Shown: positions 8,085-61,070 of the stretch, piece after piece
Numbering within the stretch: position 1 is the stretch's first letter
Layout: every line of letters begins with the position of its first letter
Source: Massariosphaeria phaeospora
Lineage: Eukaryota > Ascomycota > Dothideomycetes > Pleosporales
DNA: 64,000 bases
Direction: 5' to 3'
Assembly (NCBI GenBank): GCA_011032825.1
Contig: JAADJZ010000001.1
Location: forward strand, 2,852,001-2,916,000
Made by a program: the position numbers and the translations under genes
The notes under the pieces: model-generated
Databases searched by the model: none
Seen by the model: only the letters and a program-made list of their open reading frames with translations
Told to the model about the DNA's origin: nothing

Positions 8085-8224
8085 TCTAAGCGCTTAAACG
8101 TTATTTCTCTTTTTTATTGCTTGCATTTATCTTATCTATTTTATACACTTTAAAAGCGTTTTTCTGCTTTATAAATCAACTCTGCTCTATTTAATACTTG
8201 TTGTTTTAACTTTTTATTGTCAAG

Positions 8225-17391: not shown

Positions 17392-17932
17392 TTTGTAACT
17401 AGCCTAAGTTAGTTGAAAGCGTTTTGAGTAGCAGCGGTACAGAACTATCGATAGAAGCTGTACTCTTAAAATTAATAGCAGCGCTAAACTGCGCAGCTTC
17501 TAGTTTCTCTAGCTTTTCAATAGCAACCTACTTATTAGCAAAACGCTAATTTCTTTTTATCTTAGCAACAGAAAGCTTTACTTAAAGAGTAGCAGCACGA
17601 GACTTCGCTGCGAATACTAACTAAGCAGCTTAGATTCGTGCAAATAGCACTTGTTGCTTAGCTAGCAAAAGCTAATGTTGCAAGTTGCAACGCTTTTGTT
17701 GAAAAGCTGCTTATTTTCTTTTTGTTAGAGCAAGACTGTAGAGCGCGCTAGACTAAAGGCATTTAGCATACTTATTTGACAAAAGATTAACTAGGCACTT
17801 TAAGTTCTTTTTAAAACAACGGCCGCAAGAAGCAGGCATCTTTAGACTAGTTTTACAAATACAAGCAACTTAATTGTAACAACAACGAGTTAACTTAGAG
17901 CACGAATCTACAGAAAGCGAAGACTTAGGCAT
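17219..17932 (-). pseudogene. Gypsy-1 antisense gene, Zn2Cys6-like (decayed)
   Basis: The frame runs from ATG at 17932-17930 to TAA at 17221-17219, 714 bases, the same length as in Gypsy-5. The product starts MPKSSLSVDSCSKLTRCCYN. The cluster reads C-x2-C-x6-C-x8-Y-x2-C-x6-Y, with two Cys codons turned into Tyr (TGY to TAY). A Leu- and Gln-rich helical region (LLLAKQQVL) follows. Interrupting codons are TAA/TAG. A TATAAAAG box lies at 18008-18001, 76 bases before the ATG. The 3' end overlaps the pol chromodomain tail to tail. Confidence 0.8.
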
Positions 17933-18098: not shown

Positions 18099-18599
18099 TG
18101 TTACAAACAAAGACAATACTAGGTATCGTAGGCTAAGCAACGACGCAAAAAAGTTGTTAGAGCTTGCAAGTTTGCAAGACAAAAGTATAGCAATGCGCAA
18201 GGCAGAATTAGATTAGCAGTTACGTAATAGTAATTAGTGCGATTAGAGCTTTAGCGAACTAAGCATACTAAGCGGCAAGCGCTTAGCTAGCTTAGAACGC
18301 TTAGCAACTAAGCACACTAAGCAGACTAAGTAAAACGCTTTTAGCAAAGAATTATAGAACTATATAGATTAGCAGAATTTTCTTTATAGTTTAAATTCTT
18401 TGTAGTTAACTTTTCTAAGTACATTTTATACATAGATTGGATCTACAGGCAACAGATTGTTACTTTGTTATTCTATTCTAAATAGAATTGAGATTGTTTT
18501 TTTGTTGTTATTAAGCTTTTCGAACACAGAACAATTCTTTAAGCGAAATCTTCGAGTTCAATCGAGATTACCTTCGATAAGAAAAACCTCTTGATAACA
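18099..18599 (+). repeat. Gypsy-1 3' LTR
   Basis: A 501-bp LTR, TGTTACAAACAAAGAC...CTTGATAACA. It holds a block of GCTTAG/CTAAGC inverted motifs at about 18236-18345 that varies in kind between copies. Confidence 0.93.
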
Positions 18600-32149: not shown

Positions 32150-32689
32150 TGTTATTAGAAGTTTCTCTTACCGAGGGTAATCTCGATTGAACTCGAAGAT
32201 TTCGCCTAAGGAATTGTTCTGTGTTCGAAGAGCTTGATAACAACAAAAAAAACAATCTTAATTCTATTCTAGATAGAATAACAAAGTAACAATCTGTTGC
32301 CTATAGATTCAATTTATGTATAAAATGTACTTAGAAGAGTTAACTACAAAGAATCTAAACTGTAAAAGAAATCTTGCTAATCTATATAGTTCTACGATTC
32401 TTTGCTAAAAGCGTTTTGCTTTGCTTACTTAGTGTGCTTAGCCTAAGCACACTAAGCGCCTTAAGCGTAGTCCTACTTAGTCTGCCAAGACTAAGCGCTG
32501 TTCTACTTAGTTCGCCAAGACTAAGCGCTATTCTGCTTAGTTCGCCAAGACTAAGCGCTGTTACGTAACCGCTAACTTAACCTTGCCTTGCGCGTTTTTG
32601 TACTTCTATTTTGCAAACCTGCGAGTTTTAACAACTTTTCTACGTCGTTGCTTAGTCTACGATACCTAGTATCGTCTTTGTTTGTAACA
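32150..32689 (-). repeat. Gypsy-2 3' LTR with a 30-bp tandem repeat
   Basis: A 540-bp LTR. Units of 30 bp at 32473-32502, 32503-32532 and 32533-32562, of the form CTACTTAGTTCGCCAAGACT plus AAGCGCTGTT, explain its extra length over the 501-bp LTRs. Frames across this repeat (32374-32568) are not genes. Confidence 0.92.
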
Positions 32690-32779
32690 TTATCTCTTTC
32701 TTTAAGAATATCGTTTTGATAGCTGTTCTACTGTGCTGTGCCGGTTCTTTCTGTGTCTTGCATTAAAAGTGCCTTTTCG

Positions 32780-32787
32780 TATAAAAG
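32780..32787 (+). promoter_or_regulatory. TATA box of the Gypsy-2 antisense gene
   Basis: TATAAAAG, 76 bases before the ATG at 32856. The same octamer at the same distance occurs in the other four Gypsy copies (51616, and on minus 18008, 46335, 60625). Confidence 0.7.
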
Positions 32788-32855
32788 TAGGTTAACCTTA
32801 ATTCTCGTCGTGTCGTAGCTTCTTTTTGTATTCTTTTGAGTTTTTGAGTTTAACT

Positions 32856-33525
32856 ATGCCTAAGGCTTTCCTTCCTCCTGTTGCTTTGGTAGGCAAATCG
32901 ACTCGTCGTCGTTACGAACAAATTGCTCGAATCTGCGAACGTAGTTGTGAGATGCCGGATCCTTGTAGTCGTTGCTTAGAGAAGAGTCTTTAGTGCCTCG
33001 TAGAAGCATCGTTTGAAAAGTGTGCTAAGTGTTTAAGCTCTAGTGCTTCTTGTAGGCTTGCGCTGTTTCTTAAGAAGTAAGCTGCGCTTTAGCGGAAGCG
33101 ACGCGACCTACGCTATCGGCTTTTTGTAGTAGAAAGCCAAGCTGCTGCACTTCGTGCTAAGCTTTCTGCTGTAAAAATAAAAGAGCACGTTTGTTTATCT
33201 CAAAAGTAAATTGCGATTGCAAAGTTAGAACGGGCTAACTGCAAGGTTGCGCTTTCTAGAGCTTCTGCAAGTTCTAAAAGTATAGTTTCTACTAATAGTC
33301 CTGCACTACCGCTACTTAAAACTTTTTCAACTAACTTAGGCTAGTTACAGACTAACTCTTCTCTGCTCGCTTTTTTTTTTTTTTGATTTTTCTGCTTTTT
33401 TAGAGAACTTGGATTCTTTGCTTCTAGATTTTGCTAGTGATACTTTCGTACTAGTTCCTTGCAGTTTGTAAAATTCTATATTAGTTTCTATGTATTCTAG
33501 CTCTCTAGCTATTTTTGCTATTTAA
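32856..33525 (+). pseudogene. Gypsy-2 antisense gene, Zn2Cys6-like, all six Cys kept
   Basis: Starts MPKAFLPPVALVGKSTRRRY and continues with a basic stretch, then PCSRCLEKSL-CLVEASFEK and CAKCLSSSASC: a C-x2-C-x6-C-x8-C-x2-C-x6-C spacing, that of fungal Zn(II)2Cys6 DNA-binding domains. A charged helical region follows. It is read antisense to pol and lies between the 3' LTR and the pol end (33352-33354). Interrupting codons are TAA/TAG. A T-run near 33370 has changed length and shifts the frame before the end (the equivalent of the Gypsy-5 TGA is TAA at 33523-33525). Best-preserved cluster of the five copies. Protein production is not possible now. Confidence 0.8.
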
Positions 33526-36500
33526 CTAAGTATTTCTACTAACGTTTGAACTTTTGTAAGTTTTTGACTTTTTCGACTTTGTACTCTTTGTCTTTGAGCT
33601 CGATATTAGTTGCTACTTCGGCGTTTAGTAGTGCTAGTTTAAAAAGTAATTTGTAAAAAACTAGATGTATGCGCATGCTTGTAGGTAGCTGTAGTTTAAA
33701 TAATACAAGTTCTTTAACTTTTAAGATTTTAAACAGTTTTATTTGAAAGTTGTCTAACTTGTTGCATAGTTGTTTAGTTTTTAGGTTTTTTCGTAAGAGA
33801 AAAACTTTATTTCTCTCTTTAAAAGTTGGTCTCTTAAGCTTTTTTTTATTTGCTAACTTAGCTATCGTAAAGTTCCTTTAAGCAATTCGTTAGCTCAATT
33901 TGTCGTGTAATTTTTGCATTTTAGAAGCCTTGTTGTCTACTGCTAGCGAAATGCTTTTAATATTTCTTAGATTTTAATAAGCTACTAGCTTATATTTGTA
34001 GTTTGCGTAGTATAGCGAGTGTTTTGTTGTCGTAGACCTCGTGCTGTTGTATGCCAATTGTGCTGTTAGCAGAAGTTTAACCTAGTTGTTCTGCAGCTTG
34101 TTAGTGTACATTTGTAGATATTGTTTTAGTATTTAGTTTGTTTATTCTGTTTGGCTATTTGTTTGCGAGTAGAAGCTAGTTGATAGCTTCTTCGCAACTT
34201 CTAACTAGGCTAAAAACGTATTTTAAAACTTTAATGTAAACAGCTTGTCTCTGTTTGTAATAAACTATTCTAGCAATTTGTAATTAGCAACAAGCGTTTT
34301 TGTAACTTCGTAAGCTATTTCTTCTGCCGTAATTAACTTTTTTATTGGTACAAAATGTAATTCTTTAGTTAATCAATTTACGATTACCAAGATCGAGTTG
34401 CATAGCTGTGCTAATTTAGGTTTTAACAATTTCAAAAGCTTTACTATAAAGTCCATTGTAACGCTAATCTATAGGCGTGCGAGTAGTTCTAGCGGTTAAA
34501 GTAATCTATAGAGCTTATATCTTTTAGGTTTGTTTTTTAAACAATCTAAACAGTTGCTTATTGCTTTTTAAACTATGTTTTGTACGTAGAGCATTAAGTA
34601 CTCGTTTAAGATTCGTCAAACTATTTTGTTAATTCTTAAGTGTTTATATGCTTGTGAAGCATGTAATTCTTAAATAAGCTATATAGCTTAAGTGTTATTT
34701 GTAACTATCTATCTTTGCTAGTCGTTTTTGCTTTATTCTTAGTGCATTTTTTTTTTAATGCTAGTAACTTTAGCTATCTTAGCTAGTCGTAGTTGGTTAT
34801 ATTTGAGAGTTCTGTTTAAGTTCTGTCGTAATATTGAGTTATGCGTAACTAGTTTGTTAGTTTTTATAAAATCTAATTTTCAACAAAGCGCGTTTGCGGC
34901 TTCGTTGTTAGTTTTTTTTTAATAGTGAATTTTAATGTTGTAATCTGCTATAAATTCGGCCTATTTAACTTGTTATCTATTTAATTTTTTAGTTGTAGTA
35001 AAGCTAGTAAGGTTCTAGTAATCTAAGTACACTTGTACTTAATGTCTTGCTTCTTTTAGCTGTGCTTTCTATTGTTTGAAAGCGTTTATTATTGCTAATA
35101 GCTTCTTGTTGTAAACGTTGTAGTTGAGTTTTGCTTCTAAAAACTTTCTAGAATAGTAGAATACTAGTTTTTATTTCCTGTCGTTGCATTGCTGTAACAG
35201 TATTGCTCCTAATGCGTAGTCTAAAGCATTAGTTTCTACTTAAGTTTCTTTTTTTAAGTCGTGCATCTGTAGCATTGGTGTCGTAGTAAACTTTTTTTTA
35301 AGTTCTTAAAACGCTTGTTCTTGTGCTTCTGTTTATTTAAACTTTCTATTCTTTTTAGTAACTTCTAAGAGTAAAGTCGTAGCCTTAAAGTAATTCTTAA
35401 TAAACTTTTAATAGAAGTTAGCAAATTCTAGAAAAAACTGCACGTTTTTTACTGTTTTAAGAGTTAGCTATTCTTGTATAGTTTGAATCTTCTTTAGGTC
35501 TATAAACATACTTTCTTTTAAAATAATAAATCCTAGATAGCTAGTTTTTGTAACGTAAAATTTACATTTCTTTAAGTAAAGTAGTAGTTAGTACTGCTTT
35601 ATTTTCTGTAGCACTTTTTTAACATGTTTCTAATGTTCTTTAAACGTTTTTTTAGAGTATATCAATACGTTGTCTAAGTACGCTGTAACAAAAATGTCTA
35701 AGTATTCGTATAGTGCTTTGTTAATTAAGGCCTAAAACGTAGCTAGGGCATTAGTTAATTTAAACGGCATAACTTAGTACTTATAGAGTTTATATCTAGT
35801 TTTAAAAGCTGTTATTTATTCGTGCTTTTTTGCAATTTTAATGCGATAGTATCCGTTTCGTACGTTGAGTTTTGTAATTTATTTTACTTTTTAAAGTTAA
35901 TTTATAAGCTTCTAAATAAGCAGTAGTAAGTATTAGTTTTTTTGTGTAACGTTGTTAAGATGTCAAAAATCTACGCACAATTTCAATTTCTTGTTTTTCT
36001 TAAGTACGAACAATATCGGCGAAGCTATTAAGCTCTCGCTTAGTTGTATGTATTCTCGTTAAATATTTCTTTAAACGTATTTCTTTAATTCTTTCTGCTA
36101 GTTGTAAGTTAGAGAATACATTAGTTCTAGTTGCAGTTTTATTCCTTTTTCTAGAATAATCTTGTAATTTTATTTTTAGTAGTTTGCTAGATCGTGCTTT
36201 TTGTCTTTTTTAAAGAAACTTTTAAACTCTGCTTAGTATTCTGTAAGAAAGTTTTTAAACTTTTCTTTTAGTTTTTTAAAGAAGTTGGGTTGTAGTTTGC
36301 TTACTTTTAAAAGCGCAACTTGTTGTATCTATATAACGCTTATCTGCTAAGAGTTTTTTTTACAAATTCTCGCGATCTTGTAAAGTAAAATTAAACTAAT
36401 TTTTCTATTCTTAGGTAAGCTTTGAATTGTTGATTTGTTTTATTGTACTTTAGTAACTTTCTTTCTAAGCCTTCGGCTGCGTATTGTTTCGTTTTTTTAA

Positions 36501-39293
36501 TTAATGTTAAAGTTGTGTTTTTGTAGCTAGTCGTACCTAATATACATGTTAGAACTTTTAAAGTTTATAATATTAATACACTGTTAGTGCTTAATGCCTG
36601 CAATTTTTAACTTAACTTTTTAAGTTTCTAGGTTAATTAAACTGTTTCTATATTCTAGTAGTTGTCCGTTAGCTAACACTATTCGTATTAGTTGATTTTT
36701 AACTTAATAAAGTATTTTGTTTATTTCTACTTATTCTAAGGAGACTAATGTCTAGGCAGCTTTGCTATCTAGTAGTGCGATAAGCTCTTAGCCTGCAACT
36801 TTTGCTTTTACTTTTATGTAATTTTGTTTTAGTTGCGTTTTTTGTACGCTTTGTACGGTCGTGCTAAGAGCACTTATACTATTCTAACTATAGATTTAGT
36901 AGCTCGCTAGTTTTTTGCCAAGAAAGCCTTTAAAACTTGTTTTTCTAGAATGTTCTATTGTTCGTAGTATTTGCACTAGTTAATAAAACATTTTTATAGC
37001 TGTAAGTGTTTGCTGTAGTTTTAATTTTTAAAATTCTATCTAGTTGCGTATCTCTATAGCTAATAAATCGCGCATTTTTAAGTGCAGAAAAGCTAGCGTG
37101 CTACTTAGCACGTATCGTAGTTTTCTATGCATAATTTGTTGTTGCATTTTAAGTAGTCTTTGTTTTTTAAACTTATAAGCTACTATTCTGTAATATGCTT
37201 GCTAGACTAGTGTATTTGACATTTCTTGTCGTAGCACTATGCTTATGCGCAGCTTCTGCTGTAGTTTTTAAACTAATTGTTATAGTTGTGTACGTAACAT
37301 TTTGTTACTATACATTCGCTGTCTTTAAGTAAAACGTATAATAGTAATTTTAGCTATTGTTGCGCGAAGATTCTATTGTTTGCGTAGTACATGCAGTTTT
37401 TCTCGTTGCACTAGTGCCAAAGCAAGTTTCCGTAATTGTTCTAATTAGCAAACTTTATTTTCTTTTTCGTTAGTCTTTGTTGTGCTATTGCTGCTTTTGC
37501 AGCTTTTTATTTTTATAGTTCTTTAATTTATAGTTCTTTAAACTGTTAGTTGTAGTACTAGGCAATGTAAGTAGTTTTACTGCACATCTAGCACTTGTAA
37601 TTTTAAAGTTAATCTGTAATTTCTTTTGCTTGTAAATAAGTAGGTTCTGTTTTTTAGTCTAACAGTTTCTTTGCTATCGAGTTTTTAACTTTAACCTACT
37701 TGCTGTCTAGTTTTTTGTAGATTCTTAGATATAGTGTAGCTACTTGTTGTAGTTAAACTATAGCAATAGTAGCAGCTTGCGCGCCTGCTACTTTCTGTAG
37801 AGTTTTTAAGCAGTTTCTGCAAAAGTATTTGTTTTTACTGCATTAAAAACATACTTTATTATTGTAACGCTTTTAGCGTTTCTCTTTAGACAGCTCGTTT
37901 TTAGAGTTTTGCTTTGTCAAAGTAGCGTTTTTTTTGTTAAACTATTTTTGTAGTAGTTTGTTGTTCTAGACTCGTCTAACGCTGTTGATATCTATTAGGT
38001 CGTAGTAATAGGTTTTTTAAATCGTTGCTACTAGGCGTATGTATAGTTTGACAGTAAACTTGCGTTCTTGCTATTGTTGCTATAGTTAGTTGTTAATTTG
38101 TACCGCAGTTTTAATTAGCTCGTTGAGTTTTTTTAGTTTTTTGTTTTAACTAATTTTATTTTTTACGTATTTTTTTAACTTTGCGTAGTAAAACTCGCAT
38201 AAGTTGCGTTCTTCTACATTGTCTACTTTAGCTTAAATTCTTTTAAATTTAATTGTGTACTCGCTAGCTAAGCTTTTTTGCTTAAGTAGTCTAAGTTAGT
38301 TTATTGCTTGCTGCGTTTCGTTTACTTCGCCGTAGATTGTATAAAGTTCTTGCTTAAACAACTTTTAATTCTTAAAAATGCGCTTCGTGTTTTGCTTTAT
38401 TTTCTTTACGTTTTCTGCGTGCGTAACGTAATCTTCGGCGTATAGCTAAAACTATTTTGCTGCGTTGTCTTTTATGTGCATTTTAGCTGCTAAGATCTTG
38501 TTTTAATTTATGTAGAAGCTGTTGCTATAATAACAGCAGTAAAAGTTAACGTTAGTAAGAAAAAGTTTTAAGTTTTTTTTTCTACTGCTATATTTCTCTA
38601 GAGAAAGTGCTTTTGCTAACTTTTTTTCTATTCTACTTTAGAGCTTCGTAACTGCTGCTAGCAGTTTTTAAATCTATTCTGCTTGCTGCTGTATCTAATT
38701 AGCTTGCTTTGCTATTACAGTTGCTAGGTTCGTTGTAAGTGTAGTAACGCTGCTGCTCGTTGTGCGTAAGTATTATCAAAAGTGCTCTCTTACCAAAAGT
38801 ACGAGTTATCGAACTCGAAGATTCTGCCTAAGAAATTGTTCTGTGTTCAAAAAGCTTAATAACAACAAAAAAACAATCTCAATTCTATTTTAGATAGAAT
38901 AACAAAGTAACAATTTGTTGCCTATAGATCTAATCTATGTATAAAATGTACTTAGAAAAGTTAACTACAAAGAATTCAAACTGTAAAGAAAATTCTACTA
39001 ATCTATATAGTTCTATAATTCTTTGCCAAAAGCGTTCTACTTTGCTTGCTACGTTCTGCTACGCCGTAGCACTCGTAGCGCTCGTAGCAACTGTTGCTTA
39101 GTATGCTACGTGCTAAGGCCTCGTAGCACTCGTAGCGCATTACGTAATCTTTGCTAACCTAATTCTGCTTTGCGCGTTGCTGTACTTTCGTTTTGCAAAC
39201 TTGCAAGCTCTAACAACTTTTCTACGTCGTTGCTTAGTCTACGATACCTAGTATCGTTTCTATTTGTAATAGTAAGCTCGTAGGTGTTGTTAT
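33352..39293 (-). pseudogene. Gypsy-2 gag-pol, interrupted by a solo LTR
   Basis: Runs from an ATA (former ATG) at 39293-39291 to TAG at 33354-33352. The solo LTR enters seven codons after the start. The zinc knuckle is near 37800-37860, Cys-rich region about 36920-37580, protease site near 36765, RT YLDNVLIYS near 35650-35690, integrase about 33950-34650 and chromodomain about 33410-33600, all in the same order as Gypsy-1. TAA/TAG codons are throughout. Confidence 0.88.
38771..39271 (-). repeat. Solo Gypsy LTR inside Gypsy-2
   Basis: A 501-bp LTR (TATTATC...TGTAATA, both terminal TG/CA pairs altered by transitions) with GTAAG at 38766-38770 and 39272-39276. Its variable block holds GCTACG/CGTAGC motifs like the Gypsy-4 LTR, so it came from that subtype, not from Gypsy-2. 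Confidence 0.9.
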
Positions 39294-39326
39294 GTTGTCT
39301 TAGTTCTAAACCTAAAGTAGTTAACG

Positions 39327-39866
39327 TGTTATTAGAAGTTTCTCTTACTAAAAGTAATCTCGATTAGACTCGAAAATTCCGCCTAAGAAATTGTTCTGTG
39401 TTCGAAAAGCTTAATAACAACAAAAAAAACAATCTCAATTCTATTCTAAATAGAATAACAAAGTAACAATTTGTTGCCTATAGATCTAATCTATGTATAA
39501 AATGTACTTAAGAGAGTTAACTACAAAGAATCTAAACTGTAAAAAAAATTCTGCTAATCTATATAGTTTTATAATTCTTTGCTAAAAGCGTTTTGCTTTG
39601 CTTGCTTAGTATGCTTAGCCTAAGCACACTAAGCGCTTTAAGCGTAGTCCTACTTAGTTTGCCAAGACTAAGCGCTGTTCTACTTAGTTTGCCAAGACTA
39701 AGCGCTGTTCTGCTTGGTTCGCTAAGCCTAAGCGCTGTTACGTAACTGCTAACCTAACTCTACTTCGCGCGTTTTCGTACTTTTATCTTGCAAACCTGCG
39801 AGTTCTAACAACTTTTCTACGTCGTTGCTTAGTCTACGATACCTAGTATCGTTTTTGTTTGTAACA
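39327..39866 (-). repeat. Gypsy-2 5' LTR
   Basis: A 540-bp partner of 32150-32689, with the same three 30-bp units at about 39650-39739. It meets the inverted Gypsy-3 LTR head to head at 39867, which creates chance frames across 39749-40081. Confidence 0.92.
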
Positions 39867-43300: not shown

Positions 43301-45798
43301 TACTATCGCATTAAAATTGCAAAAGAGCACAAATAGTTAATAGCTTTTAAGACTAGATATAAACTCTACGAGTACTAAGTTATGCTATTTAAATTAACTA
43401 ATGCTCTAGCTACGTTTTAAGCTTTAATTAACAAAGTATTACACAAATACTTAAACATTTTTGTTACAGCATACTTAAACGACGTATTAATATACTCTAA
43501 AGAAACGCTTAAAGAACATTAGAAACATGTTAAAAAAGTTCTACAAAAAATAAAGCAGTACTAGCTACTACTACACTTAAAAAAATGTAAATTTTACGTT
43601 ACAAAAACTAGCTATCTTAGATTTATTATTTTAAGAAAAAGTGTGTTTATGGACTCAAAGAAAATCTAGACTATACAAAAGTAGCTAACTTTTAAAACAG
43701 TAAAAAATGTGTAGTTTTTTTTTTAATTTGCTAACTTCTATTAAAAGTTTATTAAAAATTACTCTAAAACTACGACACTGCTCTTAGAAGTTACTAAAAA
43801 AAATAAAAAGTTTAAATAAACAAAAGCACAAGAATAGGCGTTTTAAGAACTTAAAAAAAAGTTTACTACAGCACTAATGCTACAAATGCACAACTTAAAA
43901 AGAAAAACTTAAGTAGAAACTAATGCTTTAAACTATGCATTAAAAGCAATACTCTTACAACAATGCAACAATAAAAAATAGAAACTAGTGTTTTACTATT
44001 TTAGAAAGTTCTTTAGAGTAGAACTTAACTACGACGTTTACAATAAAAAGCTATTAGCAATAATAAACGCCTTTAAACAATAAAAAGCATAGCTAAAAAG
44101 AGCAAGGCATTAAGTACAAGTATACTTAGACTACTAAAACTTTACTAGCTTTACTACAACTAAAAAACTAAATAGACAACAAGTTAAATAGGCTGAATTT
44201 ATAGCAAACTACAATATCAAGATTTACTATTGCAAAGAAACTAACAATAGAGCTGCAAACGCGCTTAGTCGAAAATTAAATTTTATAGAAACTAACAAAC
44301 TAGTTACGCATAACCTAGTATTACGACAAAATCTAGATAAAACTCTCGAATACAATTAACTACAACTAGCTAAGATAGCTATAGTTACAAGCATTAAAAA
44401 AAGAATACACTAAAAATAAAGCAAAAACGATTAGCAAAAATAGATAGTTACAAACGACACTTAAGCTGTACTACTTATTTAAAAACTATATACTTCAAAA
44501 GCATATAAACACCTAGAAATTAACGAAATAGTTTAACGAATTTTAAACAAGTACTTAATGCTCTACGTACAAAACATAGTTTAGAAAGCAATAAGCAACT
44601 ATTTAGATTATTTAAAAAACAAACCTAAAAAACATAAGCTTTACGGATTACTTTAATTGCTAAAACTACTCGCACGCTTATAGATTAGCGTTACAATAGA
44701 TTTTATAGTAAAGCTTTTAAAATTGTTAAAACCCAAATTAGCATAGCTATGCGACTCGATTTTGGTAATTGTAAATTAATTAACTAAAGTATTATACTTT
44801 GTACTAACAGAAGAATCTATTACGGCAGAAAAAATAGCTTACGAAGTTACAAAAACACTCGTTGCTAATTACAAATTGCTAGAATAGTTTATTACTAATA
44901 GAAACAAGCTGTTTATATTAAAGTTTTAGAATACGTTCTTAGCCTAGTTAAAAGTTGCAAAGAAGCTATTAACTAGCTTCCACTCGCAAACAAACGGCTA
45001 GACGAAACAAATAAACTAAACACTAGAATAGTACTTACGAATGTACGCTAACAAGCTGCAAAACAACTAGGTTAAACTTTTGCTAACAGCACAATTAGCT
45101 TACAATAGCACAAAGTTTGCAACTACAAAACACTTGCTTTACTACGCAAACTATAGATATAAGCTAGTAACTTACTAAAATTCAAAAAATATTAAAAGCA
45201 TTTCGCTAGCAGCGGACAACAAGGCTTTTAGAATAATAAAATTACATAACAAATTAAGCAAACGAATTGCTTAAAGAAACTTAACGACAGCTAAGTTAGC
45301 AAATAAAAAAAAAATTAAAAAACCAACTTTTAAAAAGGGAGATAGAGTTTTTCTTTTACAAAAAAATCTAAAAACAAAAAAACTATGCAACAAGTTAAAC
45401 AACTTTTAAATAAAACTATTTAAAATTTTAAAAGTTAAGAAACTTGTATTATTTAAACTACAGCTACTTACAAGCATGCGCATATACTTAGTTTTTTACA
45501 AATTACTTTTTAAACTAGCACTACTAAACGCCGAAGTAGCAACTAATATCAAACTTAAAAACGAAAAGTATAAAGTTAAAGAAGTTAAGAACCTACAAAA
45601 GTTCAAACGTTAGTAAAAATACTTAGTTAAATAGCAAAAATAGCTAGAAAGCTAGAATACATAGAAACTAATACGAAATTTTACAAACTACAAGAAATTA
45701 GTGCAAGCATATTACTAGCAAAATTTAGAAGCAAAGAATCCAAGTTCTCTAAAAAAGCAGAAAAATTAAAAAAAAAAAAGCGAGAAAAAACGAGTTAG
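40369..45798 (+). pseudogene. Gypsy-3 gag-pol
   Basis: Same order as Gypsy-1: Gag from an ATA start at 40369-40371, knuckle CF-CSKVKYFCRNY near 41290, Cys-rich region about 41560-42080, protease LLNSKAA near 42385, RT with AYLNDVLIYSK near 43470, RNase H near 43910-44280, integrase about 44500-45300, and chromodomain about 45550-45720 ending at TAG 45796-45798. It is heavily mutated, with many TAA/TAG. Confidence 0.88.
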
Positions 45799-46010
45799 TT
45801 TGTAACTAGCTTAGGTTAGCTAAAAGTAGTTCGAATAGTAGTAGTACAAGACTATTAGTAGAAGCTGTACTTTTAAAATCAAAAAACGCGCTTAGCTGCG
45901 CTCTCTTAAGATTTTTTATTTCTTTAATTAATGCATGTTTCTAAGCGAACAACTTTTTTTTTTTTTAGTAGCAGCATTAAGTTGATTTTAGAGATTAAGC
46001 TTGCAACGCT

Positions 46011-46259
46011 CTATAGCGCAAAGCTTTCAACGCAAAACGCACTGCTTTTTAGCAACAGCAGCAAACTTTTTTTTAAACAAAAAAAAAAACACTTAGAACC
46101 TAACGATATACAATTAACACAAGTTTTTTTAAGCAAAAAAAAACACTTTAGGCCTTTTAACAAACAGCAACGGTACGGCTTTGCAACAAAGTAGTTTATT
46201 GCACAAAAACAAGCAAAACGATTGTAATAGCAACTAGTTGATTTTGCAACTTTAAGCAT
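46011..46259 (-). pseudogene. Gypsy-3 antisense gene, divergent Zn2Cys6-like class
   Basis: From ATG 46259-46257 to TAG at 46011, 82 residues starting MLKVAKSTSCYYNR. The cluster reads Y-x2-C-x6-C-x7-C-x2-C-x6-C (RCCLLKGLKC, then TCVNCISLGSKC), with the first Cys replaced by Tyr. The rest of the sequence is very different from the Gypsy-1/-2/-5 class, but the place, orientation and TATAAAAG box (46335-46328, 76 bases before the ATG) are the same. Shorter than the 237-codon class; the original C-terminus is uncertain. Confidence 0.68.
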
Positions 46260-46425: not shown

Positions 46426-46905
46426 TGTTACAAATAAAAACAATACTAGGTATTGTAAACTAAGCAACAACGTAAAAAAGTTGTTAAAGCTTGCTAGTAC
46501 GCAAGACGAAAGTACAACAATGCGCAAAGCAAAGTTAAGTAAGCAAAAATTACGTAACGTGCTTAGCACGCTTAGTAGTTTTAGCACTAAGCAAACTAAG
46601 TAGAAGTTGCTTAGTAAAATTAGCATGCTTAGTACTAAGCATACTAAGCAAACTAAGCAAAATGCTTTTAGTAAAGAATTATAAAATTATATAAATTAGT
46701 AGAATTTTCTTTACAATTTTAATTTTTTGTAGTTAACTTTTCTAAGTACATCGCATACATAGATTAAATCTATAAGCAACTATTTGTGTACTTTGTTATT
46801 TAATTTAGAATTAAATAAAATTGTTTTCTTTTGTTGTTATTAAGCCTTTCGAACACAGAACAATTTCTTAGGCGAAATCTTCGAGTTCAATTACAATTAC
46901 CTTTG
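46426..46905 (+). repeat. Gypsy-3 3' LTR, 3'-truncated
   Basis: Starts TGTTACAAATAAAAAC and stops at ...ATTACCTTTG where the Gypsy-4 LTR begins. About 23 end bases are missing. Confidence 0.88.
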
Positions 46906-51024: not shown

Positions 51025-51525
51025 TGTTATCAAAGGTGTTCTCTTATCGAAGGTACGAGTTATTGGACTCGGAGATTCCGCCTAAGGGATTGTTCTGTGT
51101 TCAAAGGGCTTGGTAACAACAAAAAAACAATCTTAATCTTATTCTAAATAGAATAACAAAGTAACAATCTGTTGCCTATAGATTTAATCTATGTATAAAA
51201 TGTACTTAGAAGAGTTAACTACAAAGAATCCGAACTGTAAAGAAAATCTTGCTAATCTATATAGTTCTATAATTCTCTGCTAAAAGCGTCCTGCTTAGTT
51301 CGCTTAGTGTGCTTAGTTACTAAGCGCTCTAGGCTAGCTAAGCGCTCGCCGCTTAGTGTGCTTAGTTCGCTAAAGCTTTAATCGCACTAATTACTATTAC
51401 GTAACTGCTAACCTAATCCTGCCTTGCGCATTGCTGTACTTCCGTCTTGCAAACCTGCAAGCTCTAACAACTTTCCTGCGTCGTTGCTTAGTCTACGATA
51501 CCTAGTATCGTCTTTGTTTGTAACA
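51025..51525 (-). repeat. Gypsy-5 3' LTR
   Basis: 501 bp, TGTTATCAAAGGTG...TTTGTAACA as read on plus. Variable block at about 51290-51400 with GCTTAGTGTGCTTAG and CTAAGCGCT motifs. Confidence 0.94.
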
Positions 51526-51615
51526 TTATTCTTTTCTTTAAGAATATTGTCTCGATAGCTGTCTTGCTGTGCTGTGCCGGTTCTTTCTGTGCCTTGCATC
51601 AAAGGTGCTCTTTCG

Positions 51616-51623
51616 TATAAAAG
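51616..51623 (+). promoter_or_regulatory. TATA box of the Gypsy-5 antisense gene
   Basis: TATAAAAG followed by TAGGTTAACCT, 76 bases before ATG 51692. The octamer and spacing are kept in all five Gypsy copies, which argues that the antisense gene has its own promoter outside the LTR. Confidence 0.72.
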
Positions 51624-51691
51624 TAGGTTAACCTCGATTCTCGTCGTGTCGTAGCTTTCTCTTGTATTCTTTTGAGTTTTTAAGTCTAACT

Positions 51692-52405
51692 ATGCCTAAG
51701 TCTTCGCTTTCTGTAGATTCGTGCTCTAAGTTGACCTGCCGTCGTTACGATTAAGTTGCCCGTATTCGCGAAACTAGTTTGGAAATGCCTGCTCTTTGCG
51801 GCTGTTGTTCCAAAGAGAACTTAAAGTGCCTAGTTGATCTTTTGTTAGATAAGTGTGCTAAATGTCTTTAGTCTAGCGCGCCCTACAGTCTTGCTCTAAC
51901 AAAAAGAGAGTAGGCAGCTTTTCAACAAAAGCGTCGCGACTTGCAACATCGGCTTTTGCTAGCTAAGCAACAGGTGCTATCTGCACGGATCTAGGCCGCT
52001 TAGATAGTGTCTGCGGCGAAGTTCCGTGCTGCTACTCTTTAAGTAGAGCTTTCTGTTGCTAAAATAGAAAAGAATTAGCGTTTTGCTAATAAGTAGGTGG
52101 CTATTGAAGAGCTAGAGAAACTAGAAGCTGCGCAGTCCGGCGCTGCTGTCGATTCCAAGAGTACAATTTCTACCGATAGTCCTGTACCGCCGCTATTTGA
52201 AACGCTTTCGGCTAACTTAGGCTAGTTACAGACTAACTCTTCTCTGTTTGCTTCTTCTTCTTTTGACTTTTCTGCTTTCTTAGAGAACTCGGATTCTTTG
52301 CTTCTAAATTTCGCTAGTGATACTTTCGTACTAGTTCCTTGCAGTTTATAAGATTCTGTATTAGTTCCTATGTATTCTAGCTCTCTAGCTATTCTTGCTA
52401 TTTGA
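51692..52405 (+). pseudogene. Gypsy-5 antisense gene, Zn2Cys6-like, 237 codons
   Basis: One frame from ATG 51692 to TGA 52403-52405 (237 codons), broken only by TAG/TAA. Because TGA is the codon this mutation destroys rather than makes, the end is probably real. Residues about 10-35 are basic (KLTCRRYD, VARIRETSLEMP). The cluster is LCGCCSKENLKCLVDLLLDK then CAKC and a sixth position now Tyr: C-x2-C-x6-C-x8-C-x2-C-x6-Y. Residues about 70-155 are helical with Leu/Gln/Arg (RRDLQHRLLLAKQQ), a possible coiled coil, followed by Ser-rich acidic sequence. The last 173 bases overlap the pol end tail to tail. By analogy a DNA-binding regulator; target unknown. Confidence 0.8.
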
Positions 52406-55400
52406 CTAAGTACTTCTACTAACGTCCGAACTTCTGTAGGTCCTTGACTTTCTCGACTTCGTACTCTTCGTCTTCGAGCTCGATATCGGTTGCTACTTCG
52501 GCGTTTAGTAGTGCTAGTTTAAAGAGTAATTTGTGAAAAACTAGATGTATGTGCATGCTTGCGAGTAGCTGTAGTTTAAATAATACAAGTTTCTTAACTT
52601 TTAGGATTTTGAACGGTTCTATTCGAAAGTTGTCTAACTTGTTGCATGGTCGTTTAGTTTTCAGGTTTTTTCGTAAGAAGAAAACTCTATCCCCCTCTTT
52701 AAGAGTTAGTTCCTTAAGCTTTTTCTTGTTTGCTAACTTAGCTGTCGTAAAGTTCCTTTAAGCAATTCTTTGGCTCAATTCGTCGTGTAATTCTTGCATT
52801 CTAAAAGCCTTGTCGTCCGCTGTCAGCGAAATGCTTTTAATATCTTTTAAATTTCGATAAGCTACTAGCTTATATCTATGGTTTGCGTAGTACGGCAAGT
52901 GTTCTATAGTCGTAGACCTTGTGCTGTTGTATGCCAATTGTGCTGTTAGCAGAAGTTCAACCTAGTTGTCCTGCAGCTTGTTAGTGTACATTCGTAGGTA
53001 CTATTCTAGCGTTTAGTTCGTTCGTTCTGTCTAGCCGTTTGTTTGCGGGTAGAAGCTAGTTAATAGCTTCTTTGCAACTCCTAACTAGGCTAGGAACGTA
53101 TCCCAAAACTTTAATATAAACAGCTTGTTTCTATTAGTAATAAACTGTTCTAGCAATTTGTAATTGGCGACAAGTGTCTTCGTAACTTCGTAAGCTATTT
53201 CTTCTGCCGTAATTAACTCTTCTGTTGGTACAAAATGTAATTCTTTGGTTAATTAATCTACGATTACCAAGATCGAGTTGCATAGCCGTGCTAATCTAGG
53301 TTCTAACGATTTTAAGAGCTTTACTATAAAGTTTATTGTAACGCTAATTCATAGGCGTGCAGGTGGTTCTAGCAGTTAAAGTAATCCATAGAGCTTATGT
53401 CTCTTAGGTTTGTTCTTTGAACAATTCAAATAGTTGCTTATTGCTTTCTAAACTGTGTTTCGTACGTAGGGCATTGAGTACTCGTTCGAGATTCGTCGAA
53501 CTATTTCGTTAATCCCTAGGTGTCTATATGCTTGTAAAGCATGTAATTTCTAGATAAGCTGTATAGCTTAAGTGTCGTCTGTAACTATCTATTTCTGCTA
53601 GTCGTTTTTGCTCTATTCTTAGTGCATTCTTTTTTTAATGCTTGTAACTCTAGCTATTTTAGCTAGTTGCGGTTTGTTGTATTCAAGGGTTCCGTTGGAA
53701 TTCCGTCGCAATACTAGGTCGTGCGTGACCGGTTTGTTAGTTTCTGTAAAATCTAATCTTCGACTAAGCGCGTCTGCGGCTTCGTTGTTAGTTTCTTTGC
53801 AATAGTAAATCTTGATATCGTAATCTGCTATGAATTCAGCCTATCTAACTTGTTGTCAATTTAGTTTCTTAGTTGTAGTGAAGCTAGTGAGGTTCTAATA
53901 ATCTAAGTACACTTGTACTTAATGCCTTGCCTTTTTCAGCTATGCTTTTTATTGTTCGAAGGCGTTTATTATTGCTAATAGCTCTTTATCGTAAACGTCG
54001 TAGTTGAGTTCTGCTTCTAAGAACTTCCTAGAATGGTAGAACACTAGTCTCCATTTCCTGTTGTCGCATTGTTGTGATAGTATTGCTCCTAATGCGTAGT
54101 CTAAAGCATTAGTTTCTACTTAAGTTTTTTTTTCTAGGTCGTGCATCTGTAGCATCGGTGCTGTAGTAAACTTCTTTCTAAGTTCTTAAAACGCTTGTTT
54201 CTGTGTTTTCGTTTATTTGAACTTTCTATTTTTCTTGGTAACTTCTAAGAGTAGAGTCGTAGTCTTAGAGTAATTCTTAATAAACTTTCAATAGAAGTTA
54301 GCAAATTCTAAAAAGAACTGCACGTTTCTTACTGTTTTAGGAGTTGGCTATTTCTGTACAGTCTAGATCTTCTTCGGGTCCATAGACACACCTTTTCTTA
54401 AAATAATAAATCCTAGATAGCTAGTTTTCGTAACGTGGAATTTACATTTCTTTAAGTAAAAAAGTAGCCGGTACTGCTTTATTTTTTGTAGCACTTTTTT
54501 AACATGCTCCTGATGTTCTTCGAGCGTTTCTTTGGAGTATATCAATACGTTGTCCAAGTACGCTATAACAAAGATGTCTAAGTATTCGTATAGTGCTTTG
54601 TTAATTAAGGCCTAAAACGTAGCCAAGGCGTTGGTTAATTTAAACAGCATAACCTAGTACTTATAGAGTCTATATCTAGTTTTGAAAGCTGTTATCTATT
54701 CGTGCTCTTTTGCAATTTTAATGCAATAGTATTCGTTTCGTACGTCGAGTTTCGTAATTTATTTTACTTCTTAAAGTCGATCCATAAGCTTCTAGATAAG
54801 CAGTAGTAAGTATCTGTTTTTTTGTGTAACGTTGTTGAGATGTCAAAAATCTACGCACAGTTTCAATTCCTTGTTTTTCTTAGGTACGAACAATATTAGC
54901 GAAGCTATTAAGCTTTCGCTTAGTTGTATGTATTCTCGCTGGATATTTCTTTAAATGTATTTTTTCAATTTCTCCTGCTAGTTGTAAGTTAGGGGATACA
55001 TTGGTTCTAGTCGCAGTTTCGTTCTTTCTTCAAGGATAATCTTGTGATTTTATTTTTGGTAGTTTGCTAGGTTGTGCTTTTCGTTTTTCTCAAAGAAACT
55101 TCTAAACTCTGCTTGGTATTCGGTAGAGAGGTTTCTAAACTTCTTTTTCTGTTCCTTAGAGAGGTTAGATCGTAGTTTGCTCGTTTTTGAAGGCGCAACT
55201 CGTCGTATCCATATAACGCCTATCTGCTAAAAGTCTTTTCTACAGATTCTCGCGATCTTGTAGTGTAAAATTAGACTAATTCTCTCGATCTTAGGTAAGC
55301 TTTGAATTGTCGGTTCGTTTTGTTGTACTACAGCGACTTTCTTTCTAGGCCTTCGGCTGTGTATTGTTTCGTTTTCTTAATTAATGTCAAAGTTGTGCTT

Positions 55401-57667
55401 TCGTAGCTAGTCGTACCTAATATACATGTCAAAACTTTCAAGGTTTATAATATTAATACACTGTTGGTGTTTAATGCTCGCAACTTTCAACTCGACTTTC
55501 TAGGTTTCTAGGTTGATTAAACTGTTTCTATATTCTAGTAGTTATCCGTTAGCTAACACTGTTCGTATTAGTCAATTCTTAACTTGATAAAGTATCTTGT
55601 TTCTTTTTACCTATTCTAGGGAGACTAATGTCTAGGCAGCTTCGCTATCAAGTAGTGCAGTTAGCTCTTAGCCTGCGACTTTCGCTTTTACTTCTATGTA
55701 ATTTCGTTCTAGTTGCGTTTTTTGTACGCTTCGTACGGTCGTGCTAGAAGCACTCGTACTATTTTAACCGTAGGTCTAGTAGCCTACTAGTTTTTTGCCA
55801 AGAAAGCTCTTAAGGCCTGTTCTTTTGAGATGTCCTATTAATCGTGGTATTCGCACTAGTCGATGAAACATTTCTATAGCTGTAGGTATTTGCTATGGTC
55901 TCGATTCTTGAGATTCCATCCGGTCGCGTATTTCTATAGCTGATGGATTGCGCATTCTTAAGTGCAAAAGAGCTAGCGTGCTGCTTGGCACGTATTGTAG
56001 TTTTCTGTGCATAATTTGTTGTTGCATTTTAGGTAGTCCTTGTTCTCTAGACCTATAAGCTACTATCCTGTAATATGCTTGCTAGACTAGTGTGTTTGAC
56101 ACTTTTTGTTGTAACACTATGCCTATGCGCGGCTGCTGCTGTAGTTCTTAAACCAATTGTTGTAGTTATGTACGTAGCATTCTGTTACTGTACATTCGCC
56201 GTCTTTGAGTAAAACGTGTAATAGTAATCTTAGCTGTTGTTGCGCAAGGATTCTATCGTCTGTGTGGTATATGCAGTTTTTCTCGTTGCACTAGTGCCAA
56301 AGCAGGTTTCCGTAATTGTCTTAATTAGCGAACTTTATTTTCTTTTCTGTTAGTTCTTGTTGTGCTATTGCTGCTTTTGCAGCTTTCTATTTCTGTAGTT
56401 CTTCGATTTGTAGTTCCTTAAACTGTTGATCGCAGTACTAGGCAATGTAGGTAGTTCTACCGCACATCCAGCACTCGTAGTTTCAAAGTTAATCTGTAAT
56501 TTCTTTTGCTTGTATATGAGCAGGCTTTGTTTCCTAGTCTAACAGTTTCTTTGCTATTGAGTTTTCTACCTCGACTCATTCGCTGTCTAGTTCTTTATAG
56601 ATTCTTGGATATAGTGTAGCTACTCGTTGTAGTTAAACTATAGCGATAGTAGCAGCTTGCGCGCCTGCTACTTTCTGTTGTGTTTCTAGGCAGTCTCTGC
56701 GGAAGTGTTCGTTTTTGCTGCATTAGAAACATGCTTTATTGTCGTAACGCTTCTAGCGTTTTTCTTTTAATAGCTTGTCTTTAGAGTTTTGTCTTGTCGA
56801 GGTAGCGTTCTTTTTATTAAACTGCTTTCGTAGTAGTTTGTCGTTCTAGATTCGTCTAATGCTGTCGATATCCATTGGGTCGTAGTAATAGGTTTTTTTG
56901 ATCGTTGTTACTAGGCGTATGTATAGTTTGACAGTGGACTTGCGTTTCTGCTGTCGTTGCTATAGTCAGTTGTCAATTTGTACCGCGGTTTCAATCAACT
57001 CGTTGAGTTTCTCTAGTTTTTTGTTTTGACTAATTTTATTCTTTACGTGTTTTTTTAACTTTGCGTAGTAGAACTCGCATAAGCCGCGTTCTCCTACGTT
57101 GTCCACCTTAGCCTAAATTCTCTTGAATTTGATTGTGTACTCGCCGGCTAAGCTTTTTTGTCTAAGTAGTCTAAGTTGGTTTATTGCTTGCTAGGTTTCG
57201 TCTACTTTGCCGTAGATCGTATAAAGTTCTTGCTTAAAAGACTTCTAGTTTTTGAAAATGCGCTTCGTGTTTTGCTTTATCTTTTTTACGTTTTCTGCGT
57301 GCGTAACGTAATTTTCGGCGTATAGCTAAAACTATTCTGCTGCGTCGTCTTTTATGTGCATTCTAGCTGCTAGGATCTTGTCTTAATCTATGTAAAAGCT
57401 GTTGCTATAATAACAGCAGTAAAAGTCTACGTTAGTAAGAAAAAGTTTTAGGTTCTTCTTTCCCTCGCTATATTTCTCTAGGGAAAGTGCTTTTGCTAAC
57501 TTTTCTTTCGTTCTACCTCGGAGCTTTGTAACTGCTGCTAATAGTTCTTGAATCTGTTCCGCTTGCTGCTGTATCTAATTAGCTTGCTTTGCTATTACAG
57601 TCGCTAGGTTCGTTGTAGGTGTAGTAACGCTGCTGCTTATCGTGCGTAAGCTCGTAAGTGTTGCCAT
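52233..57667 (-). pseudogene. Gypsy-5 gag-pol
   Basis: Starts with a kept ATG at 57667-57665 (MATLTSLRTISSSV), 34 bases inside the 5' LTR. The knuckle CF-CSKNEHFRRDC at 56731-56692 and the protease site LLDSEAA at about 55650-55630 are in the same frame as the ATG. Between them is a Cys-rich stretch with repeated C-x4-C-x2-H units (55800-56480). RT: VPKKNKELKLCVDF near 54880 and YLDNVLIYSK at 54560-54530 (one Asp of YLDD now Asn), with 64 open codons at 54363-54557. RNase H about 53780-54130, integrase about 52850-53550, chromodomain about 52290-52460. A net indel between protease and RT breaks the frame. End TAG 52235-52233. Confidence 0.92.
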
Positions 57668-57700
57668 GTTGTCTTAGTTCTAAACCTAAAGTAGTTAACG

Positions 57701-58201
57701 TGTTATTAGAGGTGTTCTCTTACTAAAGGTACGAGTTATCAAACTCGAAGATTCTGCTTAAGAGATTGTTCTGTATTCGAAAAGCTTGGTAACAACAAAA
57801 AAACAATCTCAATTCTATCTTGAATAGAATAACAAAGTAACAATTTGTTGCCTATAGATTTAATCTATGTATGAGATGTACTTAAAAGAGTTAACTACAA
57901 AGAATCCAAACTGTAAAAGAAATTCTGCTAATCTATATAGTTCTATAATTCTTCGCTAAAAGCGTCTTGCTTAGTCCGCTCGGTGTGCTTAGTTACTAAG
58001 CGCTTTAGGCTAGCTAAGCGCTCGCCGCTTAGTGTGCTTAGTCCGCTAAAGCTCTAATCGCACTAATTACTATTACGTAACTGCTAACTTAATTCTGCTT
58101 TGCGCATTGCTGTACTTTCGTCTTGCAGACCTGCAAGCTCTAACAACTTTCCTGCGTTGTTGCTTAGTCTACGATACCTAGTATCGTTTTTGTTTGTAAC
58201 A
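57701..58201 (-). repeat. Gypsy-5 5' LTR
   Basis: 501 bp, partner of 51025-51525. Internal sequence begins CGTTAACTACTTTAGG on the coding strand directly after it. I could not match this to a tRNA with confidence. Confidence 0.94.
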
Positions 58202-60348
58202 TACTCTTACAGCAATGCAACGACAAAAAATAAAAACTAGTGTTCTACTATTCTAGAAAGTTCTTAAGAGTAGAACTTAACTACAACGTTTACAATAAAA
58301 AGCTATTAGCAATAATAAACGCTTTTAAACAATAAAAAGCATAGCTAAAAAAAGCAAGGCATTAAGTACAAGTGTACTTAGACTATTAAAACTTTACTAG
58401 CTTTACTACAACTAAGAAATTAAATAGACAACAAGTTAAATAAGCTGAATTTATAGCAGATTACGACATCAAGATTTACTATTGCAAAAAAACTAACAAT
58501 AGAGTTGCAAACGCGCTTAGTTAAAAATTAGATTTTATAAAAACTAACAAACTAGTTACGCACGACTTAGTATTACAACAGAACTTAAACAAAACTCTCA
58601 AATACAACCAACCGCAATTAGCTAAAATAGCTAAAGTAACAAGCATTAAAAAAAGAATGCACTAAGAATAGAGCAAAAACAACTAGCAAAGATAGATAGT
58701 TACAAACAATACTTAAGCTACATAGCTTATTTAAGAATTACATGCTTTACAAGCATATAGATACTTAAGAATTAACAAAATAGTTTAACAAATTTTAAAC
58801 AAGTACTTAATACTCTACGTACAAAACATAGTTTAAAAAGTAGTAAGCAACTATTTAGATTGTTTAAAAAACAAACTTAAAAAACACAAGCTTTACAGAT
58901 TACTTTAACTACTAAAACTACTCGCACGCTTATAGATTAGCGTTACGATAGACTTTATAGTAAAGCTTTTAAAATTGTTAAAACCTAAATTAGCACGGCT
59001 ATGCAATTCGATTTTGGTAATCGTAGATTAATTAACTAAAGAATTACATTTTGTACTAACAGAAAAGTTAATTACAGCAGAAAAAATAGCTTACGAAGTT
59101 ACGAAAGCACTTGTCGCTAATTACAAATTGCTAGAACAGTTTATTACTAATAGAAACAAACTATTTATATTAAAGTTTTAGAATACGTTTTTAGCCTAGT
59201 TAAGAGTTGCAAAAAAGCTATTAACTAGCTTTCACCCGCAAACAAACGGCTAGACAGAACAAACAAACTAAATGCTAAAATAGTATTTACAAATGTACAC
59301 TAACAAGTTGCAAAACAACTAAGTTAAACTTCTGCTAACAGCACAATTAGCATACAATAGTACAAGGTTTACAACAATAGAACACTTGCTATACTACGCA
59401 AATTACAAATATAAGCTAGTAGCTTATTAAAATCTAAAGAATATTAAAAGTATTTCGCTAGTAGTAGACAACAAGGCTTCTAGAATGCAAGAATTACACA
59501 ACGAATTAAGCTAACAAATCGCTTAAAAAAACTTTACGACAGCTAAGTTAGCAAATAAAAAAAACTTAAAAGACTAACTCTTAAAGAGAGAAATAGAGTT
59601 TTTCTTTTACAAAAAAACTTAAAAACTAAACAACTATGCAACAAGTTAAACAACTTTCAAATAAAACTATTTAAAATCTTAAAAGTTAAAAGACTTGTAT
59701 TATTTAAACTACAGCTACCTACAAGCATGCGCATATATCTAGTTTTTTACAAATTACTTTTTAAACTAGCACTACTAAACGCTAAAGTAGCAACTAATAT
59801 CAAACTCAAAAACAAAAAGTACGAAGTTGAAAAAGTTAAGAATCTATAGAAGTTTAGACGTTAGTAGAAATACTTAGTTAAATAGCAAAAATAGCTAGAG
59901 AGCTAGAATACATAGAAACTAATACGAAATTTTACAAACTACAAGGAACTAGTACGAAAGTATTACTAGCAAAATTTAGAAGCAAAGAATTCAAGTTTTC
60001 TAAAAAAGCAAAAAAGTTAAAAAAAAAAAAAGCAAGCAAAGAAAAGTTAGTTTGTAACTAGTTTAAGTTAGCCGAAAGCAATTCGCGTAGCAGCGGTATA
60101 GGACTATAAGTAAAAGCTATACTTTTAGAATTAAAAAAAGCGCTCGACTACGCTTTCTTAAAACGTTTTATTTTTTTAATCGTTGCTAGCTTACGAGCAA
60201 ACAACTTTTTCTTTTTACTAACAGCTGCGTTAACTTAAGCCCAAAGCTCTAAGACACTCTAACGAATTTTAAGCTTTTAAAACTCTACCGCAAAAAGCTT
60301 TTAACGCAGAAACCGCTGTTTCTTAGCAACAGCAGCAAACTTTTTTTT

Positions 60349-60549
60349 TTAAAAAAAAAAACTACACACTAAGCTAAAAGAAATACAGTCTAAACAAGTT
60401 TCTTTAGGCGAAAGAAAACACTTTAGACTTTTTAACAAGCAGCAACGGTAGAGCTTTGCTACAAAGTAATTTATTGCACGAATACGCGCAAGACAAGCGT
60501 GCTTACAAATAGTTAACTTTGCAAAAAAAAATACAAAAACTTTAAGCAT
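60349..60549 (-). pseudogene. Gypsy-4 antisense gene, divergent Zn2Cys6-like class
   Basis: From ATG 60549-60547, starting MLKVFVFFFAKL. The cluster RCCLLKSLKC then TCLDC and ISFSLVC gives Y-x2-C-x6-C-x7-C-x2-C-x6-C, as in Gypsy-3, with the first position Tyr in both. TATAAAAG lies at 60625-60618, 76 bases before the ATG. Reading beyond 60349 is lost in A/T runs. Same class as Gypsy-3. Confidence 0.65.
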
Positions 60550-60715: not shown

Positions 60716-61070
60716 TGTTACAAACAAAGACAATACTAAGTATTGTAAACTAAGCAACAACGTAAAAGAGTTGTTAAAGCTTGCAAGTTTGCAAAACAAA
60801 AGTACAGCAACGCGCAAAGTAGAATTAGGTTAGCAAAAGTTACGTAATGCGCTACGAGTGCTACAAAGCCTTAGTACGTAGCACACTAAGCAATAGTTGC
60901 TACGAGCGCTACAAGTGCTACGGCGTAGCAAGACGTAGTAAGCAAAGCAAAACGCTTTTAGCAAAAAATTATAGAACTATATAGATTAGCAAAATTTCTT
61001 TTACAATTTAGATTTTTTGTAGTTAAATTTTTTAAGTACATTTTATACATAGATTAAATCTATAGGCAAC
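60716..61070 (+). repeat. Gypsy-4 3' LTR, truncated
   Basis: The first 355 bases of a 501-bp LTR, stopping at CTATAGGCAAC. The next base begins unrelated sequence, so this is a deletion or rearrangement breakpoint. Confidence 0.9.

Follow-up and report, generated by a model that had tools for sequence, protein, structure and literature searches.

In a 64,000-nucleotide stretch of the genome of the fungus Massariosphaeria phaeospora (contig JAADJZ010000001.1, positions 2,852,001 to 2,916,000 of the forward strand; 'the window' below means this whole stretch), Ty3/Gypsy retrotransposons of one family carry an extra gene antisense to gag-pol, between the end of pol and the 3' long terminal repeat (LTR), whose predicted product is a Zn2Cys6-like protein. 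The gene comes in several types, and the type of the gene agrees with the type of an array of short repeated sites in the LTR. Judged from these sequence patterns, the protein is probably a self-encoded, type-specific regulator of the element's own LTR.

The antisense frame is found, by homology, in all five window copies that reach the 3' end, which bears out what a first-pass annotation of the window had observed. That annotation described one gene in five copies: the gene is indeed present in each, but in four types rather than one (elements A to E are of types II, III, IV, II and I, respectively). Specifically, the type II gene of element D lies at 51692..52351 on the forward strand, with its natural stop at 52349, and the others lie at 17276..17932 (type II, reverse strand, element A), 32856..33494 (type III, forward, element B), about 45761..46259 (type IV, reverse, heavily decayed, element C) and 59938..60549 (type I, reverse, the truncated element E). 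For D the frame had been drawn at 51692-52405 with TAG and TAA as its only stops. The stops are as described, but the length of 714 bases is not: less damaged relatives have their stop at the codon corresponding to the TAG at 52349-52351 of D, so the natural frame is approximately 51692-52351 and the last 18 codons lie beyond the natural stop. The cysteine spacing reported for copy B (from 32856 on), C-x2-C-x6-C-x8-C-x2-C-x6-C, is present, with one stop within the first x6.

Across the 42-Mb genome, the antisense gene gave 176 matches with a damaged window copy as query and 149 with an undamaged one, where one element copy can yield two matches. At four loci (L039-L042) the first 157 codons are free of stops. 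The open frame of L039 extends to 212 codons, the tails of L040 and L042 sit in another frame, and in L041 the frame is cut near codon 159 by unrelated sequence. Dinucleotide shuffles (n=2000) were open over that length 0-2 times in the same frame and 34-96 times in any of the six frames. Undamaged versions of the gene, which the first-pass annotation would have sought in related species, are found in the same genome. The 17 damaged copies hold 120 stops (75 TAG, 44 TAA and 1 TGA), the spectrum that repeat-induced point mutation (RIP) would give. As a side observation on L041, which has an undamaged type I gene and LTR, the frames past the junction resemble, by eye, gag and reverse transcriptase (RT) of another element.

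Because RIP makes transitions only, we counted divergence as transversions only, within positions 1, 2 and 3 of the antisense codons. The counts are 17/11/42 between types II and III (p 9e-6), 3/1/12 between two type I copies (p 0.0016), 44/30/51 between types I and II (p 0.064) and 35/28/49 between types I and III (p 0.047). The third codon position is the highest in all four comparisons, which are not fully independent, and the pattern is that of a protein under purifying selection. Neutral substitution, which the first-pass annotation had held up as the sign of a spurious frame, is not what these RIP-proof counts show: they carry codon-position constraint. In several undamaged copies the sense strand also holds an open frame opposite the gene, which we rejected as the constrained frame. 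From the phase of the two frames, derived by hand for L043, the third positions of the sense frame correspond to position 2 of the antisense frame, the least variable position, so the constraint is on the antisense frame. At fourfold sites of the gene there are up to 6/16 transversions between types; the differences between the genes are therefore old, though the backbone is young. In D, nucleotides 52160-52348 encode an acidic tail opposite the lysine-rich end of pol. Over the acidic-tail region, L039 (type I) and L043 (type II) differ by 0 transversions across 63 codons.

The product is a protein of approximately 210 residues, with a basic arm, a six-cysteine cluster, a long coiled coil and an acidic-aromatic tail. 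A profile search returned 67 related proteins, 13 of them from the fungus Zopfia. In a set of 14 sequences (the matches of the second search minus P0012, plus three genome copies) the invariant columns are the six cysteines and one proline, and in 38 hand-picked relatives only the six cysteines are invariant. The Zn2Cys6 cluster (PF00172) has the spacing CX2CX6CX5-12CX2CX6-8C, which is kept strictly by 58 of the 74 retrieved proteins and by 64 of them if wider gaps are allowed; those that do not fit include fragments without the cluster region, as well as P0016 and P0045, which lack the third cysteine. The arm is basic in 32 of 33 aligned relatives, and the tail is acidic in 38 of 38, with aromatic residues.

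When the 38 relatives were scanned against Pfam, Zn_clus was the commonest family, with 29 at E<=1 and a best value of 6.4e-4, against 6 for the next family. The six proteins that were scored singly do not reach the Zn_clus gathering cut-off of 21 bits (five proteins from the genome score 12.4-15.0 bits and P0001 13.0), and 'Zn2Cys6-like' is therefore the safe name. Among PDB profiles PUT3 matches best (E 0.0055), and in a profile comparison with 8 Zn2Cys6 domains of the host all six cysteines align (P 2.3e-4). A predicted model has a predicted local distance difference test score (pLDDT) of 95-97 for block residues 11-60 and a helix at 68-173. Foldseek alone gave no significant match for this model; among the matches listed, 8 of 8 are Zn2Cys6 DNA-binding domains. 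Each of these lines is modest alone, but the Pfam, PDB-profile, host-domain and model evidence together go beyond the chance cysteine spacing that the first-pass annotation had allowed for. The profiles, the predicted model and the transversion counts thus support a protein-coding, Zn2Cys6-like gene.

The divergence between the types is concentrated in two islands on a shared backbone. Counting positions from the antisense ATG, the region from -480 onward shows 0.00-0.04 transversions per site among types I, II and III wherever it lies outside the islands. The first island is the antisense gene itself, from the ATG to about +470, with 0.12-0.38 transversions per site among the three types; the second is a stretch of the LTR approximately 430 to 300 bp before the ATG, with 0.03-0.27. 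Within types, both islands show 0.017 or less. The outer end of the LTR is noisier, with up to 0.08 between types I, II and III and 0.03-0.05 within types. At about -650, also in the outer LTR, a short variable stretch is common to A (type II) and B (type III) and is not found in the other type II and III copies. Within the window alone, in bins of 100 bp, the comparisons of D with B and of A with B rise above 0.08 solely in the two islands, over the length compared, and D and A, both of type II, exceed 0.08 in neither island and only in bins at the disturbed 5' end of A. Element C (type IV) differs in both islands and has further differences, mostly in the gag part.

The two islands vary together. 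Of 39 copies that were typed, L029 and L050 lack an LTR block, and in the 37 usable copies the type of the gene is the type of the LTR block in every case (20 of type II, 8 of III, 8 of I and 1 of IV; Mantel r 0.89, 0/2000 permutations), though copies of one type are recent relatives and the agreement therefore amounts to approximately four independent cases. Without the four reference copies it still holds in 33 of 33, narrowly so for L013. Left out of the typing were L017 (no gene start), L055-L062 (retrieved sequence not covering the full LTR block) and repeated loci, and L063 and L064 were added later. The 5' LTR is of the same type as the 3' LTR in B, C and D; in the 5' LTR of A no array block was recognised. 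Among the other loci, L035 and L036 are apparently a single sequence present at two locations, and L029, whose antisense gene gives good scores with type II as well as type III queries, may be a mosaic.

The LTR island, of about 120 bp, is an array of GCTNNG sites that are often 9 bp apart. In D the type II array lies at 51290..51409 (3' LTR) and 57966..58085 (5' LTR), and A has a type II array at 18215..18334 in its 3' LTR. The type III arrays of B are at 32415..32573 (3' LTR) and 39592-39750 (5' LTR), the type IV arrays of C at 46542..46661 (3' LTR) and 39949-40068 (5' LTR), and the type I (GCTACG) array of E at 60832..60951 in the 3' LTR. In type I, CGTAGC (= GCTACG) occurs 6 to 8 times per 120-130 bp, and any 6-mer was as frequent in 0 of 1000 shuffles. 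CTGAGC occurs 5 times in type II (1/1000 shuffles) and 6 times in type III (0/1000), and the damaged type IV has CTAAGC 8 times (2/1000). Counts of 5-mers are weaker (27, 3, 65, 18 and 4 per 1000 shuffles for L039, L040, L019, L015 and copy C). In L040 and L043, no other 125-bp window along the sequence matches the 5-mer frequency of the array, whereas in L039 A-runs do. Read in the sense direction, the array is directly upstream of the TATA-like CTATATAG, which is at -435 in D, and has a CACGTG-type site next to it. In D, 166 bp separate the antisense ATG from the 3' LTR at its inner end, and a TATAA stands 76 bp ahead of this ATG.

GCTNNG sites number 10 in L040, 8 in L019 and 11 in L015, and six of them keep their place and orientation in each of the I-II, I-III and II-III comparisons. 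At several such sites the centres switch jointly with the gene type, GCTACG in one case and GCTC(A/G)G in the other. Since the motif was defined after inspection, the p values for the sites are descriptive and not tests: the I-II comparison has differences at 14/18 central and 17/44 outer bases (Fisher p 0.011), a comparison of II with another type I copy at 15/18 and 18/46 (p 0.002), the I-III comparison at 12/15 and 15/42 (p 0.006), and the II-III comparison, in which the sites agree, at 3/14 and 5/37 (p 0.67). Types II and III are nearest to one another in their DNA-binding domains and also in their sites, with type I further off. From the pairing of sequences, the basic arm may set the specificity, with RY(D/E/N) in types II, III and, where still readable, IV going with GCT(C/T)(A/G)G, and KHA in type I going with GCTACG.

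These patterns suggest how the system could work. Transcription of the gene would start at the element's 3' end and run toward pol, and the protein would dimerise via its coiled coil. It would bind the array of putative GCTNNG sites in the element's own U3, directly upstream of the gag-pol TATA-like box, and most likely activate transcription from the LTR. Activation is favoured because the tail is acidic; such a tail is typical of fungal Zn2Cys6 (Gal4-type) transcription factors. Reverse transcription gives both LTRs the U3 of the 3' LTR, so gene and sites would travel together. The family has diverged into types in which protein and sites changed together. Zinc binding, DNA binding, expression, and activation over repression are what we infer from the sequences, and the idea, already raised at the first pass, that the element regulates its own LTR gains support at that level from the islands, the concordance and the joint change of the sites. 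The stronger proposal, that the types are private regulator-operator pairs that switched specificity jointly on a shared backbone, leaving the lineages separately regulated like phage immunity groups, we hold to be evenly balanced between true and false.

Two of the types weigh against a regulator matched to its own array. Type IV (C and L064) combines a type-I-like gene body with an array like that of II and III, and in L064 the LTR block is damaged or missing. As far as it can be read through the damage, the type IV arm has an RY(N) stretch like that of II and III; the II/III-like array would fit if the arm sets the specificity, a conjecture resting on few cases. Type V, represented by one damaged copy (L063), lacks a GCTNNG array and has a cluster like that of P0001. 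Beyond the two islands, this fifth gene type also differs at about -120 to -60 from the antisense ATG.

Old lineages could instead have recombined while the rest of the element was homogenised, so that gene and block vary without the protein binding the block. Diversity of U3 alongside conserved coding regions is known from plant elements (Tnt1 subfamilies), and here gene and block lie within approximately 1 kb of each other. The divergence at fourfold sites, with up to 6/16 transversions, marks the gene differences as old, type IV joins a I-like gene to a II/III-like block, and the outer-LTR stretch common to A and B points to a shuffling of LTR pieces. However, the approximately 300 bp between the islands are nearly identical in types I, II and III, so a single exchanged segment is insufficient for both. 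Recombination of this kind also sits poorly with several block sites that are fixed in place and orientation while their centres switch jointly, and with the shared closeness of the DNA-binding domains and the sites of II and III, and we consider it unlikely. Alternatively, the array may serve host transcription factors while the protein acts elsewhere. The CACGTG-type site beside the array, kept in the aligned types save for RIP-type changes (by eye), fits this, but a host factor alone leaves the joint switch of the sites and the element's gene unexplained, which makes the alternative improbable. Still harder to maintain, and in our view very improbable, is that the antisense transcript matters and the frame is incidental: antisense RNA control has been proposed for such genes, in the passages of PMC7264820 used here, but the codon-position bias belongs to the antisense frame, the open frame opposite showing none, and the six cysteines are kept through deep divergence.

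If the protein does act on the array, two modes of action are close rivals of activation. It could be mainly a repressor, giving immunity of element against element or control of copy number through private operators, as in phage immunity regions. Private protein-site pairs on a shared backbone and the coexistence of several types in one genome would both be expected of such a repressor, whereas the acidic aromatic tail in 38/38 aligned relatives suits an activator better; repression is possible, though we would not expect it. By analogy with VANC in VANDAL elements, the protein could also be an anti-silencing factor whose binding to the array opens heterochromatin. The layout there is similar, with an own protein and short repeated targets that differ among relatives (PMC5735166, in the part drawn on here), and most copies here are RIP-damaged; this seems to us doubtful, slightly more so than recombination of old lineages. 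Activation of the element's own LTR by a type-specific protein remains the reading that we prefer.

Parts of the system resemble several known ones. Gal4-type factors (PF00172; PUT3, HAP1, PPR1 and Leu3) likewise have a six-cysteine cluster followed by a coiled coil; unlike them, the present protein is encoded by a retrotransposon, scores below the Pfam cut-off when taken singly and has putative GCTNNG sites, and its first loop is less basic than in the 8 host Zn2Cys6 domains. Regulators encoded near the 3' LTR are familiar from retroviruses: HBZ of human T-cell leukaemia virus type 1 (HTLV-1) is antisense, and foamy virus Tas binds the LTR, but these are retroviral and unrelated proteins. VANC shares with the present case an element-encoded protein and short repeated motifs that vary among related elements, with the cognate status of the motifs inferred here, but protein and element class are different, and the described effect is loss of DNA methylation (PMC5735166, same part) rather than, as here, an array of putative sites in an LTR-retrotransposon promoter.

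Closest in layout are antisense open reading frames (aORFs) between pol and the 3' LTR, and the present gene is one of these in place, orientation, presence and conservation. Those of plants (Grande gene23, RIRE2, Retand and PvRetro13) share place and orientation, and some of their products are nuclear; they differ in showing no clear protein similarity save an SMC domain in PvRetro13 and a Transposase 28 domain in Retand, and the sections of PMC7264820 consulted mention no matched LTR sites and describe the antisense genes of LTR retrotransposons as being of unknown function. Boty-like Gypsy elements of Botrytis and Sclerotinia carry the antisense gene brtn (Zhao et al. 2011, as cited in PMC7264820, PMC8365987 and PMC4227169). 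They too are fungal Gypsy elements with a CHROMO domain (PMC4227169) and an extra antisense gene between pol and the 3' LTR, but the excerpts of these papers that deal with brtn mention neither a Zn2Cys6 domain nor cognate LTR sites. The first-pass statement that Ty3/Gypsy elements do not normally carry such a gene is thus half right: antisense genes at this place are already known, from plants and Boty, but for a zinc-cluster antisense gene with cognate LTR sites we found no report in the open-licence literature searched; the original Boty description, which lies outside that literature, may cover the domain. Nor did the literature searched contain a matched change of gene and sites such as the sequences here suggest.

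Element D spans 51025..58202 with gag-pol on the reverse strand, and its LTRs (3' LTR 51025-51526, 5' LTR 57701-58202) are 502 bp each with 90.6% identity. Three of the six pol pieces tried passed the Pfam cut-offs, as RT, RNase H and a Tf2-1-type SH3 (52422..52757, reverse strand), and none of the pieces matched an integrase. The chromodomain of D is at about 52300-52420 in pol (reverse strand); in the sister copy L040 both Chromo and SH3_Tf2-1 are above the cut-off. With RT and RNase H in D and the chromodomain in L040, the family is a Ty3/Gypsy chromovirus. In D the end of pol and the antisense frame overlap over at least the last 60 codons of the latter. A stop inside the chromodomain, present in 7/8 copies, was considered as a site of programmed readthrough and rejected: L043 has a sense codon there, and the stop is therefore a damage hot spot. 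No RNA family reached the gathering threshold across 51025-58202.

Element B (32150..39866, reverse strand) has two type III LTRs and the target duplication CTAAG on both sides. Near its 5' end is a solo type I LTR (38770-39277) with its own 5-bp target duplication, GTAAG. A sixth Gypsy copy at 46906-51023 has a type I 5' LTR and lacks its 3' part, breaking off at the start of element D. The sequences at 7761-8088, 23166-23493 and 30279-30605, 89-90% alike, form a separate repeat family unconnected with the antisense gene.

For antisense genes of this kind, the matched signature of gene and sites suggests a function and offers a target sequence for each protein type. If the interpretation is right, the retrotransposon would carry a specific transcription switch of its own, and the coevolution of a protein with its sites would be frozen in many copies within one genome. 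Such elements could then also supply the host with new DNA-binding specificities.
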